From assembly GCF_029537485.1 (NCBI RefSeq), contig NZ_JARPUS010000001.1:248001-312000 (forward strand): DNA of 64,000 nucleotides, read 5' to 3'. Numbering within the stretch: the first letter of the stretch is position 1; each line of letters begins with the position of its first letter. The notes beneath the pieces were generated by a model. The model searched no databases, was not told the origin of the DNA, and saw only the letters and a program-made list of their open reading frames with translations. The position numbers were made by a program, and so were the translations under genes. This document shows, in pieces, positions 5,799 to 63,651 of the stretch. This DNA is from Pseudomonas sp. GOM6. GTDB lineage: Bacteria; Pseudomonadota; Gammaproteobacteria; Pseudomonadales; Pseudomonadaceae.

Positions 5799-7193
5799 TT
5801 AGCGCTTGGCCAACAACTCCTTGCCGCGCGCGACGGCGGCGCGAACCTGGTTCGGTGCGGTGCCGCCGATGTGGTCGCGGGCGCTGACCGAGCCTTCCAA
5901 GGTCAGTACGGCGAACACGTCGTCGCCGATCTGGTCGCTGAACTGGCGCAGCTCGTCCAGGCTCATTTCGGCCAGGTCCTTGCCGGTCTGTACGCCGTAT
6001 TTCACCGCGTGGCCGACGATCTCGTGGCAGTCGCGGAAGGGCAGGCCCTTGCGTACCAGATAGTCGGCCAGGTCGGTGGCGGTGGAGAAGCCGCGCAGCG
6101 CCGCTTCGCGCATCATGTCCTTCTTCGGCTTGATCGCCGGGACCATGTCGGCGAAGGCGCGCAGGCTGTCACGCAGCGTGTCGGCGGCGTCGAACAGCGG
6201 TTCCTTGTCTTCTTGGTTGTCCTTGTTGTAGGCCAGCGGCTGGCCCTTCATCAGGGTCAGCAGGCCGGTCAGGGCGCCGAACACGCGGCCGGATTTGCCG
6301 CGCACCAGTTCCGGCACGTCCGGGTTCTTCTTCTGCGGCATGATCGAGGAGCCGGTGCAGAAGCGATCCGGCAGGTCGATGAACTGGAACTGCGCCGAGG
6401 TCCACAGCACCAACTCTTCGGAGAAGCGTGACAGGTGCATCATCGCCAGCGAGGCGGCGGCGCAGAATTCGATGGCGAAGTCGCGATCCGAGACGCCGTC
6501 CAGCGAGTTGCCGCCGATGGCCTCGAAGCCGAGCAGCTGGCAGGTGATCTCGCGCTGGATCGGGTAGGTGGTGCCGGCCAGTGCGGCCGAGCCCAGCGGC
6601 ATGCGGTTGGTGCGCTTGCGGCAGTCGACCAGGCGCTCGTAGTCACGGCTGAGCATCTCGAACCAGGCCAGCAGATGGTGGCCGAAGGTCACCGGCTGCG
6701 CGGTCTGCAGGTGGGTGAAGCCGGGCATGATGGTGTCCGCTTCGGCCTCGGCCAGGCCGAGCAGACCCTGCTGCAGGCGGGTGATTTCGGCGAGGATGAT
6801 GTCGATCTCGTCGCGCAGCCACAGGCGGATGTCGGTGGCGACCTGGTCGTTGCGGCTGCGCCCGGTGTGCAGTTTCTTGCCGGTCACGCCGATGCGGTCG
6901 GTCAGGCGTGCCTCGATATTCATGTGCACGTCTTCCAGGTCGACGCGCCAGTCGAACTGGCCGGCCTCGATCTCGGCCTGGATCTGCTTGAGACCGTCGA
7001 TGATCGCGTCGCGCTCGGCGGCGCTGAGCACGCCGGCCTGCTCCAGCATGGTGGCGTGGGCAATGGAGCCCATGATGTCGTGGCGGTACAGGCGCTTGTC
7101 GAAATCGACGGAGGCGGTGAAGCGGGCGACGAAGGCGTCGACAGGCTCGCTGAAGCGGCCGCCCCAGGACTGGTTGGTTTTTTCGCTGCTCAT
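5799..7193 (-). CDS. argH: argininosuccinate lyase
   Basis: Last step of arginine synthesis: splits argininosuccinate into arginine and fumarate, in the cytoplasm as a homotetramer. The 464-residue product starts at the ATG at 7193 ([14 protein letters not shown]), the usual ArgH beginning; the frame stays open upstream but that part has no family match. The fumarase/aspartase superfamily signature [12 protein letters not shown] is intact, as are the [12 protein letters not shown] and [17 protein letters not shown] regions that build the active site. It is divergent from algZ, with 210 bases between the starts; an extended TATTAT on the minus strand near 7255 is a possible -10 box for argH. 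Confidence 0.97.
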
Positions 7194-58003: not shown

Positions 58004-59347
58004 ATGGCTGGATCGGGCAAGAAGATGAGCCTGGTTGGGCTCACCACGCTGGTGGCGGTGAACATGATGGGTTCCGGCATCATCATGCTGCCGTCGAGCA
58101 TGGCGCAGCTGGGGGCGGTGTCGCTGCTGTCGTGGCTGATCACCGCCGTGGGCTCCATGGCCATCGCCTATTGCTTCGCCCAGTGCGGCATCTACTGCCC
58201 GCGCTCTGGCGGCATGTCGGCCTACAGCGAGGAGGCGCACGGCAAGTCGGCGTTCTTCCTCTGTTCGTTCCTCTACTTCCTGTCGCTGGCGATCGGCAAC
58301 GTGGCCATCGGCATCTCCGCAGTGGGGTATCTCACGCCCTTTTTTCCCTGGCTGGGCAGCGGCGCGATCCCGCTGTTCGTCGGTACGCTGGGGCTGATCT
58401 GGCTGACCACGGTGGCCAATTTCGGTGGCCCGCGCATCACCGGCAAGATCGGTGCGATCACGGTCTGGGGGGTGATCATCCCGGTGGCCGGGCTCAGTGT
58501 GATCGGCTGGTTCTGGTTCGAGCCGGATATCTTCATCGCGGCCTGGAACCCGCACGACCTGGCGATCAGCAGCGCCATCGAGCAGAGTATTCCGCTGACC
58601 CTGTGGGCCTTCCTCGGCATGGAATCGGCGGCGCAGAATTTCGATGCCGTCGAGGAGCCCAAGCGCAACGTACCGCTGGCCTGCCTGTTCGGCACCCTGG
58701 GCGCTGCGGTGGTCTACGTGCTGTCGACCACGGTGATCCAGGGCATCGTGCCCAACGCCGAGCTAGCCAATTCGACGGCGCCGTTCGCCTTCGTCTACGC
58801 GCAGATGTTCAACCCGTTGGTGGGGCAGGTGATCATGGTGTTGGCGGTAATGGCCTGCGTCGGTTCACTGCTGGGCTGGCAATTTACCCTGGCGCAGACG
58901 GCCAAGAGCGCCGCCGACCAGGGCATGTTCCCAAGGCTCTTTTCCCGTATGACCGCGCGCAACGCCCCGGTGATCGGCCTGGTGGTGTGTGCCGCACTGC
59001 AGACGCTGATGGCCTTATCGACCATTTCGCCGAATGCCAGCGAGCAGTTTGGCAAGCTGGTCAACCTGGCGGCGGTGACCAACCTGATTCCCTACGTGAC
59101 GGCCCTCACCGGGCTGCTGGTGATCATGTACAAGGCCAGGGTCGATGCACGCATCTTCGCCCGCAATGGCGTGCTGCTGCTGATTGCCATGCTCTACTCC
59201 TACTACGCCCTGTACGCTTCCGGCAAGGATGCGGTGTTCGGCGGCCTGTTGGTGATGGCCTTCGGTTACCTGCTGTACGGCTCCATCGCCAAGAACTTCG
59301 TCGAGCGATCCCGCGTACAGCCGGACGATGCGAGGGGCTGGCTATGA
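58004..59347 (+). CDS. potE: PotE-like putrescine-ornithine antiporter (APC family)
   Basis: A 447-residue membrane transporter with twelve helices. It matches E. coli PotE closely from memory: VNMMGSGIIMLPSSMAQLG at the start, VANFGGPRITGKIGAITVWGVIIPV, LWAFLGMESAAQNFDAVEEPKRNVPLA, and GIVPNAELANSTAPFAFVYAQMFNP. PotE exchanges putrescine for ornithine or imports it with protons. No ornithine decarboxylase (speF) gene lies beside it, unlike in E. coli. Its stop overlaps the start of a periplasmic binding protein gene in ATGA, an unusual partner for a secondary transporter. Confidence 0.9.
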   Translation: MAGSGKKMSLVGLTTLVAVNMMGSGIIMLPSSMAQLGAVSLLSWLITAVGSMAIAYCFAQCGIYCPRSGGMSAYSEEAHGKSAFFLCSFLYFLSLAIGNVAIGISAVGYLTPFFPWLGSGAIPLFVGTLGLIWLTTVANFGGPRITGKIGAITVWGVIIPVAGLSVIGWFWFEPDIFIAAWNPHDLAISSAIEQSIPLTLWAFLGMESAAQNFDAVEEPKRNVPLACLFGTLGAAVVYVLSTTVIQGIVPNAELANSTAPFAFVYAQMFNPLVGQVIMVLAVMACVGSLLGWQFTLAQTAKSAADQGMFPRLFSRMTARNAPVIGLVVCAALQTLMALSTISPNASEQFGKLVNLAAVTNLIPYVTALTGLLVIMYKARVDARIFARNGVLLLIAMLYSYYALYASGKDAVFGGLLVMAFGYLLYGSIAKNFVERSRVQPDDARGWL

Positions 59348-60243
59348 AACTGAGAGCACTCCTGGGCCTGGTGCTGGCCCTGTCGCTGCCGAACGGAGCG
59401 GGCGCCGATACGCTGGAGCGGATACGCAGCAGCGCCACGCTCAACCTGGGCTATCAGACGAACACGGCGCCGTTTAGCAGCCAGCAGGGCGAGCGGGTCG
59501 ATGGCTACAGCATCGAGCTGTGCCGTCTGCTGGCTGGCCAGCTCAAGAATGCCCTGGAACTGGACGACCTGCAGTTGCACTTCCACGCGCTGGCCCATGA
59601 CCAGTGGCCGGCCGCGCTGAAGGCTGGCCAGATCGATCTGTTCTGCACGCCGGCAGCGGCCACTGGCACGCTGCGCCAGGCGGTGAGTTTCTCCGTGCCG
59701 GTCTATACCGGCGGGCTGGGTGTATTGGTGTCGCGGGATGCGCCGTCTTCGCTGCTCAGCGTGCTCAATGGCCAGGCGGCCCACAGCGGCCCGACCTGGC
59801 GGGCTACCATCAACCACGGCCTGAGCCGACAACGTTTCGCGGTGGTCGAGGGTGGCGTCAGCGAGGCCTGGGTCCGTGAACAGTTGAGCCGACTCGGGGT
59901 GATCGCCAGCGTTCTGACTGTGCCGACCTACACCGAGGGCGTGCAGTGGGTCCTGGAGGGCAAGGCCGACGCCTTCTTTAGCGAGCGTATGCTGCTCAAG
60001 CAGTACCTGAGCCAGTTGGCCGGCGGTGAGCGCTTGCAGGTGCTCGACCGGGTCTTCGAGTTCGTGCCGGTCAGCCTGGCCATGGCCCGTGGCGACGAAG
60101 ACCTGCGCCTGCAAGTGGATAGGGCCCTGAGCGAGCTGTATCGCTCCGGTGCATTGCTGCAGGCTTACCGGCGCTACCTCGGTGAGCCGGGTGAAACGGA
60201 ACGCCTGCTGTTCAAGGTCTATGCCCTGCCGCGCGACCGCTAG
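59344..60243 (+). CDS. periplasmic solute-binding protein family 3, coupled to PotE
   Basis: A 299-residue exported protein. Signal segment MKLRALLGLVLALSLPNGAGA, then the family 3 binding-protein pattern LERIRSSATLNLGYQTNTAPFSS, VDGYSIELCRLLAGQL, and the AGQIDLFCTPAAATGTLRQAVSFSVPV acidic-ligand region; two cysteines (in ELCRLL and DLFCTP). It is the size of an amino-acid ABC importer binding protein, but the upstream gene is an antiporter and no ABC genes are present. ATGA overlap implies coordinated production with potE. The ligand is likely an amino acid or polyamine, by inference. Confidence 0.88.
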   Translation: MKLRALLGLVLALSLPNGAGADTLERIRSSATLNLGYQTNTAPFSSQQGERVDGYSIELCRLLAGQLKNALELDDLQLHFHALAHDQWPAALKAGQIDLFCTPAAATGTLRQAVSFSVPVYTGGLGVLVSRDAPSSLLSVLNGQAAHSGPTWRATINHGLSRQRFAVVEGGVSEAWVREQLSRLGVIASVLTVPTYTEGVQWVLEGKADAFFSERMLLKQYLSQLAGGERLQVLDRVFEFVPVSLAMARGDEDLRLQVDRALSELYRSGALLQAYRRYLGEPGETERLLFKVYALPRDR

Positions 60244-60855: not shown

Positions 60856-62835
60856 ATGCTCACTGCATTAAAGAAATTCACCACTTTTGCTTTGCTTGGA
60901 ACCCTGATTTCCAACAGTGCAATGGCTCTCGCCGAGCCGGTTCCCCCCAAACCAGCCACCGAGGCCACCAAGGCGGCCAATGCGGCCGTACTCAAGGAAT
61001 TACCCTTTAGTGATAAATCCGATTTCGAGGATGCTCAGCGTGGCTTTATCGCCAAGCCAGACACCCTGACCATTACGAGTGCCGCAGGTACCCCGGTGTG
61101 GGATCTGGAGAGCTACAAGCAATACATCAGTCTGGACAAGGAATCTCCGGACACCATCAACCCCAGCCTGTACCGCAACGCGCAACTGAGCATGCAGTAC
61201 GGCCTGTTCAAGGTCACCGATCGTATCTACCAGGTTCGTGGCTACGACCTCTCCAACATCACCTTCGTCCAGGGCGATACCGGCTGGATCGTTTTCGATC
61301 CGTTGATCTCGACCGAAACCGCCAAGGCCGCCTACGACCTGGTTACCGCCAACCTCGGCGAGCGTCCGGTTGTGGCGCTGGTCTACAGCCACTCGCATAT
61401 CGACCATTACGGCGGCGGGCGCGGCCTGGGCAGCGATGAGGATTTTGCCTCCGGCAAGATCAAGGTGTTCGCCCCTGAAGGCTTCAGCGAGCACGCCATC
61501 AGCGAGAACGTGATCGCCGGTAACGCCATGAGTCGCCGCGCCATCTTCATGTATGGTGCGATGCTGCCACGCAATGCGCAGGGCGGAGTCAACGGTGGCC
61601 TCGGTCAGACCACCTCCACCGGCACCACTACCCTGGTATTGCCGAGCGACTTCATCACCAAGACCGGTGAAGTCGTGACGGTGGACGGTGTCGAGATGGA
61701 GTTCCAGATGACGCCGGGCACCGAGGCCCCGGCCGAAATGAATACCTACTTCCCGCAGTTCAAGGCCATGTGGATGGCTGAGAACACCACCAACACCATG
61801 CACAACATCCTGACCCTGCGCGGTGCACAGGTGCGCGATGCGTTGAAGTGGTCGAGCTTCCTCAACGAAACCATCGACCGTTACGGCGACAAGGTTGAGG
61901 TCAAGTTCCAGAGTCACCACTGGCCGCAGTGGGGCCAGGCCAAGATCAACGACTACTGGAAGAAACAGCGCGACATGTACAAGTACACCCACGACCAGTC
62001 AGTGAACCTGATGAACAAGGGGTACAACGGCGAAGAAATCTCGGAGATGATCAAGTTGCCGCCCGAACTGGACCAGTTCTGGCCCAACCGTGGCTACTAC
62101 GGCACCCTGCGCCACAACTCTCGTGCGGTCTACCAGCGCTACATGGGTTGGTACAACGGCAACCCCTCCGACCTCAACAACCTGCCACCGGAAGACGCGG
62201 CGAAGAAATATGTCGCTTACATGGGTGGTGAAGAGGCCGTGCTGAAGCTGGCCAAGGCCGACTTTGACAAGGGTGAGTACCGTTGGGTGGCCGAAGTACT
62301 CAAGCACGTGGTCTTCGCCAATCCGGAAAGCTCCGTTGGCAAGGATCTCCTGGCGGATACCTACGAGCAGCTGGGCTACCAGGCCGAGAGCGGTCCGTGG
62401 CGCGGTGTTTACCTGCAGGGCGCTTATGAGCTGCGCAATGGCGTGCCAAGTGCGGGTGGTATCAACACTGCAGGCCCGGACGTAATCAAGGCCATGCCAC
62501 CGGAAATGCTCTTCGACTACCTGTCCGTACGCCTCAACGGGCCGAAGGCGGCTGGCAAGAAGATCTTCCTCAACATCGACTTCACCGACCTGAAGAAAGA
62601 GTACGGCTTGTCTGTGGAGAACGCTGTGCTTAATTACGGCAAGCCGCTGGAGAAGCCGGACGTGACCCTGACCTTGTCCAAGGCCACGCTCGATGCCATT
62701 CAGCTGAAGCAAACCACCCTGGAAGACGCGATTACCAAGGGCAACCTCAAGGTCGATGGCAAACGTGAAGCGCTGACCGAGTTCCTGGGGCTGCTCGACA
62801 CCTTCCCGTTCTGGTTCAACATCGTTACGCCATGA
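60856..62835 (+). CDS. sdsA: SdsA-type alkylsulfatase (metallo-beta-lactamase fold)
   Basis: Secreted zinc enzyme that hydrolyses primary alkyl sulfates such as SDS; 659 residues, close to P. aeruginosa SdsA1 (658). A signal peptide fills residues 1-26 (ending ALA). The metallo-beta-lactamase domain has the zinc motif H179-S-H181-I-D183-H184 followed by YGGG, preceded by TGWIVFDPLISTETA. An alpha-helical dimerisation domain follows (DAAKKYVAYMGGEEAVLKLAK), then a C-terminal SCP2-like domain from about residue 530 (LSVRLNGPKAAGKKIFLNIDF). AGGAAG precedes the ATG. The stop overlaps the next start in ATGA. Confidence 0.95.
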   Translation: MLTALKKFTTFALLGTLISNSAMALAEPVPPKPATEATKAANAAVLKELPFSDKSDFEDAQRGFIAKPDTLTITSAAGTPVWDLESYKQYISLDKESPDTINPSLYRNAQLSMQYGLFKVTDRIYQVRGYDLSNITFVQGDTGWIVFDPLISTETAKAAYDLVTANLGERPVVALVYSHSHIDHYGGGRGLGSDEDFASGKIKVFAPEGFSEHAISENVIAGNAMSRRAIFMYGAMLPRNAQGGVNGGLGQTTSTGTTTLVLPSDFITKTGEVVTVDGVEMEFQMTPGTEAPAEMNTYFPQFKAMWMAENTTNTMHNILTLRGAQVRDALKWSSFLNETIDRYGDKVEVKFQSHHWPQWGQAKINDYWKKQRDMYKYTHDQSVNLMNKGYNGEEISEMIKLPPELDQFWPNRGYYGTLRHNSRAVYQRYMGWYNGNPSDLNNLPPEDAAKKYVAYMGGEEAVLKLAKADFDKGEYRWVAEVLKHVVFANPESSVGKDLLADTYEQLGYQAESGPWRGVYLQGAYELRNGVPSAGGINTAGPDVIKAMPPEMLFDYLSVRLNGPKAAGKKIFLNIDFTDLKKEYGLSVENAVLNYGKPLEKPDVTLTLSKATLDAIQLKQTTLEDAITKGNLKVDGKREALTEFLGLLDTFPFWFNIVTP

Positions 62836-63377
62836 AGCAGTCGTTGCTGAAGGCTGCTGGGCTTGCGCTGCTAGTCAGTAGCGCAAGTCCGATGGCTACC
62901 GCCTGTGGTTATGACAATCCGTTGGCTGATTTCGCGCCGGCTCACCCAGAATCCCTGGGTGTGGCGCTAGCGATCTACGATGCCTATGAAAGTAAACAGC
63001 TGCGCAGACCTGCTCCCCTGCCCGGTGGGTTTGGTATGCGCCGCGCACTTAACATCGTAGAGAAGCTGGAGGCCTCTCTTGCACCGGATACCGGTAGCGG
63101 AGGGTTTTATCTGCTGATGGTCGAGTCAGGGCTGTGGACTTCTTATCAAGCGGTCGACGGCACCTGGGTTGCGACGGCACATGTGGCCGAACCAGCAGTC
63201 GGTGAGCCAGTAGTGATTACTGGAGAAGGGGTGCTCATAGCGTTGCAGGGCGGCAAGCTCAACTTCAACCAGGCTATGGAGTCCGGCCTACTGAGGGTCG
63301 AAGCTTCAACCATGGAAAGCGCCGGCATCAAGCAATCATGGCAGCAGGCGGCGTTCTCGGTGGCGCAAGTCAATTGA
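62832..63377 (+). CDS. small exported, possibly lipid-anchored partner of SdsA
   Basis: A 181-residue protein I cannot assign to a named family. Residues 1-24 (MKQSLLKAAGLALLVSSASPMATA) form a signal peptide, and the only cysteine of the protein, C25, lies at its end, as in lipoproteins, although the box (MATAC) lacks the usual leucine at -3. The mature part begins CGYDNPLADFAPAHPESLGVALAIYDAYE. The later segment VLIALQGGKLNFNQAMESGLLRVEAS resembles the SCP2-type lipid-binding motif also found at the C-terminus of SdsA (TLEDAITKGNLKVDG). It is translationally coupled to sdsA and followed by a strong terminator. Confidence 0.82.
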   Translation: MKQSLLKAAGLALLVSSASPMATACGYDNPLADFAPAHPESLGVALAIYDAYESKQLRRPAPLPGGFGMRRALNIVEKLEASLAPDTGSGGFYLLMVESGLWTSYQAVDGTWVATAHVAEPAVGEPVVITGEGVLIALQGGKLNFNQAMESGLLRVEASTMESAGIKQSWQQAAFSVAQVN

Positions 63378-63431
63378 GTTAGGGCGCCACGTTCCTGTTG
63401 CCGAACTCCCCCTGACTAACCCCCGCCCAAG

Positions 63432-63479
63432 ACCCAGCCACGCATGAGTGATTGAACAATCATGCGTGGCTGGGTTTTG
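63432..63479 (+). terminator. long perfect stem-loop after the sdsA unit
   Basis: ACCCAGCCACGCATGA (63432-63447) and its exact 16-base inverse (63460-63475) flank a 12-base loop, followed by TTTT. The loop itself can form a smaller TGATT/AATCA pair. The remainder of the 325-base gap to 63702 has no gene that I can support. Confidence 0.85.
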
Positions 63480-63651
63480 GGGTGTCGGTTTTTCAGCGGC
63501 CTTGCAGTGGGGCGTCTTTGAAATTCCTCGGTCGAGGGCGGGAGGTGGCTGTATGCGCTCGCCATCACCGGCCTGCGCCCGTTGGCCAATTTGCTCCGTG
63601 ATGCCTGGGTAGGGGCGCTCGGCAGCGCACTGTGGTGCGGTATGCCGCCGG

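Follow-up and report, generated by a model that had tools for sequence, protein, structure and literature searches.

An sdsA-type alkylsulfatase gene is coupled to a gene for a small, probably exported protein with a predicted SCP2-type fold

The window, the whole stretch of 64,000 nucleotides of Pseudomonas sp. GOM6 DNA that was analysed, contains an sdsA gene followed on the same strand by a small gene of an unnamed family (Table 1). By its domains and metal ligands, the sdsA product is assigned to the type III alkylsulfatases. Pfam recognizes Lactamase_B, Alkyl_sulf_dimr (2.8e-60) and Alkyl_sulf_C (9.7e-43) domains, and among PDB sequences the enzyme matches SdsAP (E 4e-223) and SdsA1 (E 3e-199), as well as YjcS and Pisa1. 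Its metal ligands are intact and comprise H179, H181, D183 and H184 of the HxHxDH motif, two glutamates (E290 and E309) and a histidine (H354), the last three presumably corresponding to SdsA1 residues by their spacing. The HxHxDH motif used for this comparison is the one given in the accessible part of PMC3346939.

Table 1. Positions of the two genes and their associated features in the window
Feature	Position	Strand	Basis
sdsA, type III alkylsulfatase of metallo-beta-lactamase fold, 659 aa	60856..62835	+	Pfam, PDB sequence matches
HSHIDHYGG metal-binding motif of SdsA, residues 179-187	61390..61416	+	motif comparison
C-terminal Alkyl_sulf_C / SCP2-like domain of SdsA, residues 537-659	62464..62832	+	Pfam
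ATGA, overlap of sdsA stop and small-gene start	62832..62835	+	sequence
Small gene of unnamed family, 181 aa, for a probably exported SCP2-like partner	62832..63377	+	ORF, alignments, predicted fold
Probable signal peptide, residues 1-24, A-T-A ahead of Cys	62832..62903	+	by eye and signal peptidase rule
Cys25 codon, predicted first mature residue	62904..62906	+	alignments A1-A4
Predicted SCP2-type domain of the small protein, residues 67-172	63030..63347	+	AlphaFold model, Foldseek, VIA-align
Strong hairpin, 46 nt 3′ of the small gene	63424..63484	+	-49.8 kcal/mol for 63415-63490, z -8.2

The stop codon of sdsA and the start codon of the small gene share an ATGA, as the first-pass annotation had claimed and as the sequence confirms. 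The possibility that the small ORF is an artefact was rejected because nine relatives retain it at 41-48% identity. A promoter scan found no promoter. The hairpin beyond the small gene perhaps marks where transcription ends; it has a poor T tail and is missing from the output of the terminator scan. This copy of sdsA has neither an AraC-type regulator nor a GMC oxidoreductase nearby. Window positions 58004-60240 hold a PotE-like antiporter gene and a family 3 solute-binding protein gene, with an ATGA overlap of their own at 59344; locus L020 also has an ORF that begins like this antiporter.

The SCP2-like segment that had been read from the small protein at first pass is faint in the window sequence, which gives no match to Pfam and none to NCBIfam at E<=1. 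It becomes visible in relatives: the Pfam SCP2 family is matched at E<=1 by 5 of 10 Pseudomonadaceae members (best 4e-5) and by 2 of 16 members of a second, more varied set, which overlaps those ten. Two NCBIfam matches among 16 relatives (E 0.06-0.08) were judged to be due to chance. When small-protein profiles were compared with a profile built from 13 SdsA rows, the same C-terminal motif aligned with the SdsA C-terminal domain at E 0.0046, 0.0017 and 5.8e-4 for alignments A1, A2 and A3, respectively (probability 8-29%). Two other SdsA domains, compared as controls, gave E 0.086-0.26 and 0.36-0.6. The similarity to the SdsA C-terminal domain is weak but specific, and it is confined to this one motif. 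A catalytic role for the small protein was considered and dropped because a Glu/His pair that is invariant in a narrower set loses its invariance in the wider one. Outside Cys25, no cysteine or histidine is invariant in the wide set (16-row alignment A3).

The AlphaFold2 model of the window protein (pLDDT 80.3, pTM 0.73, from a 10-row alignment) has a predicted SCP2-type fold. In a Foldseek search of the PDB, the first 33 rows are all alkylsulfatases or SCP2-type proteins (E 1.5e-5 to 1e-3; 32 matches at E<=0.001), with Pisa1, SdsA1 and sterol carrier proteins in the top ranks; the query-normalised TM-scores are modest (0.30-0.43). VIA-align of residues 67-174 yields Z-scores of 9.5 to 3bdq and 9.2 to Pisa1, a range that is non-specific because proteins of unrelated fold come close, methyltransferases reaching Z 8.2 and Eis about 7. 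The fold assignment is accordingly drawn from the Foldseek ranking and two models rather than from the VIA-align scores. The second model is that of the L088 small protein, which is about 23% identical to the window's; it has a pLDDT of 82.7 and the same order of elements, and Foldseek places SCP2 proteins at its top (best E 1.9e-4, three matches at E<=0.001). It is not fully independent of the first, because its 13-row alignment included the window protein and other family members. A viral fold library gave no match at E<=0.001. As far as the predicted fold goes, the SCP2 idea is therefore correct, and the models are stronger evidence for it than the sequence comparisons.

Likeness to the enzyme's own C-terminal domain also invites a regulatory explanation, in which the free SCP2-like protein would compete with the SdsA C-terminal domain or cap the active site and so limit hydrolysis. 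Such an inhibitor would fit the presence of SdsA-type C-terminal domains among the best structural matches, and the start/stop overlap suggests matched synthesis of the two proteins. However, sequence similarity to the domain it would compete with extends to one motif, and the relatives that stand beside DUF3604 genes (discussed below) would need another explanation. A role as inhibitor is considered very unlikely.

The N-terminus of the small protein carries a probable signal peptide, and the expectation of a single cysteine exactly at its end was borne out by eye, by rule and by sequence. Cys25 is the sole cysteine of the window protein and is invariant in alignments A1-A4, including all 16 rows of A3; with A1 and A3 pooled (19 rows), no later cysteine occurs. 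Lipoprotein signals are typified by a leucine at position -3 of the lipobox, and both the lipobox and the signal peptidase I rules applied here are general patterns of this kind. The first-pass annotation had allowed for a lipid anchor. In such a reading, Cys25 would be lipidated after a cut by signal peptidase II, giving a membrane-anchored receptor for the alkyl chain. Consistent with this, the invariant Cys sits at the signal end with G or S at +2, and a loose PROSITE-type lipobox is matched by 9 of the 19 members, the window protein among them. The residues ahead of the Cys argue otherwise. Among the 19, many of which are close relatives, position -3 holds S, A, V, T or G, in no case Leu, position -2 is R, N, W or Q in six, position -1 is A in 18 and G in one, and a Pro lies at -7 to -4 in 16; a small residue or Val at -3, Ala or Gly at -1 and the preceding Pro are features of signal peptidase I sites, and a permissive signal peptidase I rule is matched by 19 of 19. 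In a Vibrio member outside this group (L112), a Leu does occupy -3, but -2 is Arg. Because of these residues, an exported protein that is soluble and begins with Cys is favoured over a lipoprotein; the lipid anchor is doubtful, and a membrane-anchored receptor is judged improbable.

The small protein occurs in 9 of 298 Pseudomonadaceae genomes, in 10 copies, two of which belong to the genome of the window. A profile search with A1 through the contigs of the named genome collection yielded 8 loci, of which three were new, whereas a scan of genome contigs with the single window protein gave no match. Among 398 Pseudomonadota genomes, four from other families carry the protein in addition to the genome of the window. 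A tblastn search of plasmids with the window protein returned two Cupriavidus, one Paraburkholderia and 13 rhizobial records; the same kind of search with the L088 small protein gave no match. Altogether, 20 different gamma- and betaproteobacterial loci were found through the small protein, and 19 of them have an sdsA on the same strand, upstream of the small gene. Seventeen of these have the small gene directly after an intact sdsA, one has a ligase in between (L015) and one has a remnant of sdsA (L023), while an in-frame ATG at -4, giving the ATGA overlap, is present in 13. Recurrence of the pairing in 19 of 20 loci makes chance implausible. The exception to adjacency is L041, the lone Paraburkholderia member, which has neither sdsA nor DUF3604 nearby; the ORF read there (6001-6573) has no evident signal peptide. 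In L087 and L088, whose SdsA is very distant (27% identical in L088), the partner gene is nonetheless present, 167-181 nt beyond sdsA. At L023 (7686-9401), sdsA is cut to its 3′ part behind an ORF that resembles a transposase by eye, and the small gene is intact.

The pairing was also approached from the side of sdsA. Seven plasmid records carry an SdsA of more than 60% identity; five were inspected, and the partner was present in two Cupriavidus and two Vibrio. Plasmid records from Vibrio with 69-71% SdsA identity number four; the two that were inspected both have the partner, beginning 3-30 nt past sdsA according to which start codon is chosen. An Agrobacterium pusense plasmid, whose record ends 433 nt after sdsA, was left unjudged. 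Because the Vibrio partners were missing from the plasmid tblastn list and were spotted only beside sdsA, negative searches may miss diverged members. The first-pass annotation had staked its proposal on an SCP2-type fold and on co-occurrence with sdsA outside very close relatives. The fold is predicted, and the co-occurrence reaches far beyond close relatives, to 19 of the 20 loci and the two from Vibrio.

In 10 of the 19 sdsA-linked loci, a GMC oxidoreductase gene precedes sdsA and an AraC-type regulator gene is divergent, so the lack of SdsB is not telling. The second operon of the same genome (L015, 5892-12450) is of this kind, with a divergent AraC-type regulator, GMC oxidoreductase, SdsA, AMP-dependent ligase and the small protein; its SdsA is 68% and its small protein 48% identical to those of the window. 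After the small gene of L015, on the opposite strand, lies an ORF that by eye resembles a short-chain dehydrogenase. Identities of the two proteins do not run in parallel across the family. Compared with Cupriavidus (L036, L037), the window SdsA is 80% identical and the small proteins only 39-40%; compared with Pseudomonas (L018, L015), SdsA is 68% and the small proteins 48-49% identical. This mismatch may reflect either gene exchange or uneven rates.

The link between the two genes is one-way, as most sampled sdsA genes have no partner. Among the 298 Pseudomonadaceae genomes, 100 have sdsA at E<=1e-100, versus nine with the partner. The 16 closest sdsA copies (at least 66% identity) divide into nine with the partner and seven without; a match at E 0.012 among the seven (L079) was judged to be due to chance. 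The genome of the window has a third SdsA (L025), about 30% identical to that of the window, and the surrounding 15 kb contain no partner; no credible match was found near the SdsA proteins of about 50% identity from Psychrobacter pP62BP1 and Cupriavidus metallidurans. In a class-wide sample of 274 genomes, sdsA (E<=1e-50) is present in 17 and the partner in one, the genome of the window itself. Since the order-wide search with A1 (1 of 390) and the class-wide search with A3 (1 of 274) returned this genome only, the family is rare and patchy. In a tree of 56 SdsA sequences, a single clade of 23 (SH-aLRT 99) contains 16 of the 18 partnered ones, and the remaining two belong to a distant clade; the partner label changes six times, versus 15.5 in shuffles, with none of 500 as low. 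The tree predates the Vibrio finds. It shows clustering and not the number of gains, because it was built quickly and its branches are long, the sequence of some loci stops only about 1.5 kb past sdsA, and relatives would be expected to cluster.

In rhizobia, the family has a different genomic context. The rhizobial homologue was reached by tblastn from the window protein (E 3e-11), and rhizobial records make up 20 of the 21 plasmid matches of a rhizobial query, the other being from Cupriavidus. All eight loci inspected (L038, L039, L040, L042 and L116-L119) carry genes for DUF3604 (one or two each), a PPIC-type PPIase and HupE_UreJ on the same strand, and sdsA was not found within the stretch examined around the homologue in any of the eight. 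The motif HxHTxxSxDA or a close variant, which we take to recall that of PHP hydrolases, is present in five of five DUF3604 proteins looked at. Three DUF3604 proteins gave only DUF3604 in Pfam at E<=10, and no PDB sequence matched DUF3604 at E<=1. A purely alkylsulfate role of the small protein does not account for the company of its rhizobial relatives, which stand with DUF3604, PPIase and HupE/UreJ.

This context is relevant to a maturation factor, whereby the small protein would fold or metallate a secreted metallohydrolase through its N-terminal Cys, with the SCP2 fold serving as a mere scaffold. In rhizobia it would provide the same service for DUF3604, alongside the PPIase and HupE/UreJ. 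Such a factor would account for the rhizobial context at least as well as a carrier would: the PPIase and HupE_UreJ are present in all eight loci inspected, the single N-terminal Cys is invariant, and SdsA and DUF3604 are both probable metal-dependent hydrolases, the latter by likeness of motif. It is harder to reconcile with the many sdsA genes, most of those sampled, that have no partner, and with the wide set, where Cys25 has no invariant Cys or His to accompany it. Related sulfatases, moreover, are active when expressed alone in E. coli, according to the accessible part of PMC6107682. Taken together, a maturation role seems unlikely. A broader and tentative possibility, clearly less likely than not, is that the exported lone-Cys SCP2-fold family may be a general module, encoded by its own gene, that handles chains or aids maturation for exported metallohydrolases of unrelated families, namely type III alkylsulfatases in gamma- and betaproteobacteria and the uncharacterised DUF3604 proteins in rhizobia. 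In that case, DUF3604 would become a candidate hydrolase of amphiphiles.

The preferred reading, to which we give about an even chance, is that the small protein may be a co-expressed, soluble, exported SCP2-type carrier for the alkyl chain of SdsA, more probably for the released alcohol than for the substrate. Its basis is the coupling of the genes over several bacterial families and the predicted SCP2 fold, from which we infer export and chain binding. In this model, sdsA and the small gene would be co-expressed to produce an exported pair, and cleavage by signal peptidase I would yield a soluble carrier starting with the lone Cys. Outside the cytoplasm, the carrier would bind the alkyl chain handled by SdsA. 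The free carrier would take over the long-chain alcohol, a poorly soluble product, as hydrolysis sets it free and hand it on to the membrane and the enzymes that oxidise it, thereby relieving product inhibition and toxicity. Delivery of substrate by the carrier is a second possibility, and the first-pass idea of a division of labour, with one protein catching the alkyl chain and the other cleaving the sulfate, may hold; a role as acceptor of the alcohol is likelier because SdsA has an SCP2-like domain of its own. The accessible part of PMC6107682 stresses the importance of the SCP-2-like domain for long-chain substrates and postulates that it binds substrate. The pathway context may be counted for the carrier, with the GMC oxidoreductase and AraC-type regulator of the 10 of 19 loci and the AMP-dependent ligase of L015. 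In the slf pathway, as described in the accessible part of PMC3346939, the alcohol enters the cell by an unspecified transport before it is oxidised; a carrier could act at an entry of this type.

Several observations weaken the carrier reading. Most sampled sdsA genes are partnerless, the rhizobial relatives stand with genes other than sdsA, the TM-scores are modest and unrelated folds reach a VIA-align Z of 8.2. The activity of alkylsulfatases of this class when expressed alone in E. coli (the same part of PMC6107682) also counts against it.

If the carrier reading is correct, a conserved exported partner with the same type of lipid-binding fold would supply a component that has been missing from the alkylsulfatase system. 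The parts of the papers examined treat the type III alkylsulfatases of detergent breakdown as stand-alone enzymes. Such a partner would bear on the route by which an insoluble alcohol product reaches the oxidising enzymes. It would also link the DUF3604 family to a possible function. As far as searched, the fold and the enzyme are of known kinds and the free exported partner is undescribed: no description of a free exported SCP2-like alkylsulfatase partner was found in the titles and abstract openings searched, among which few subscription papers were covered.

Among known systems, the slf operon of Psychrobacter pP62BP1, as presented in the accessible part of PMC3346939, combines an AraC regulator, a GMC oxidoreductase, an alkylsulfatase and a CoA ligase, as found around several relatives of the small protein. 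It differs in that pP62BP1 also encodes an aldehyde dehydrogenase, and a six-frame search there gave nothing credible for the small protein (best E 0.23). The rhizobial cluster of DUF3604, Rotamase_2 and HupE_UreJ_2 resembles the window in possessing a homologue of the small protein with the same Cys; unlike the window, it has no sdsA beside that homologue in the eight loci. With the Pfam family PF02036 (SCP2), which includes bacterial UbiJ, the small protein shares the predicted fold and a C-terminal motif like GKL...A...G. It differs from this family in its probable export, in an extra conserved N-terminal segment with the invariant Cys, and in a similarity that lies mostly below Pfam detection. 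A further comparison is with SdsA1, SdsAP and Pisa1, whose domains and metal ligands are shared by the window SdsA and whose C-terminal domain is resembled by the small-protein model. In the characterised alkylsulfatases, the SCP2-like domain belongs to the enzyme itself, and its presence in SdsAP is stated in the accessible part of PMC5426288; in the window, a second, free copy of the predicted fold is encoded downstream.
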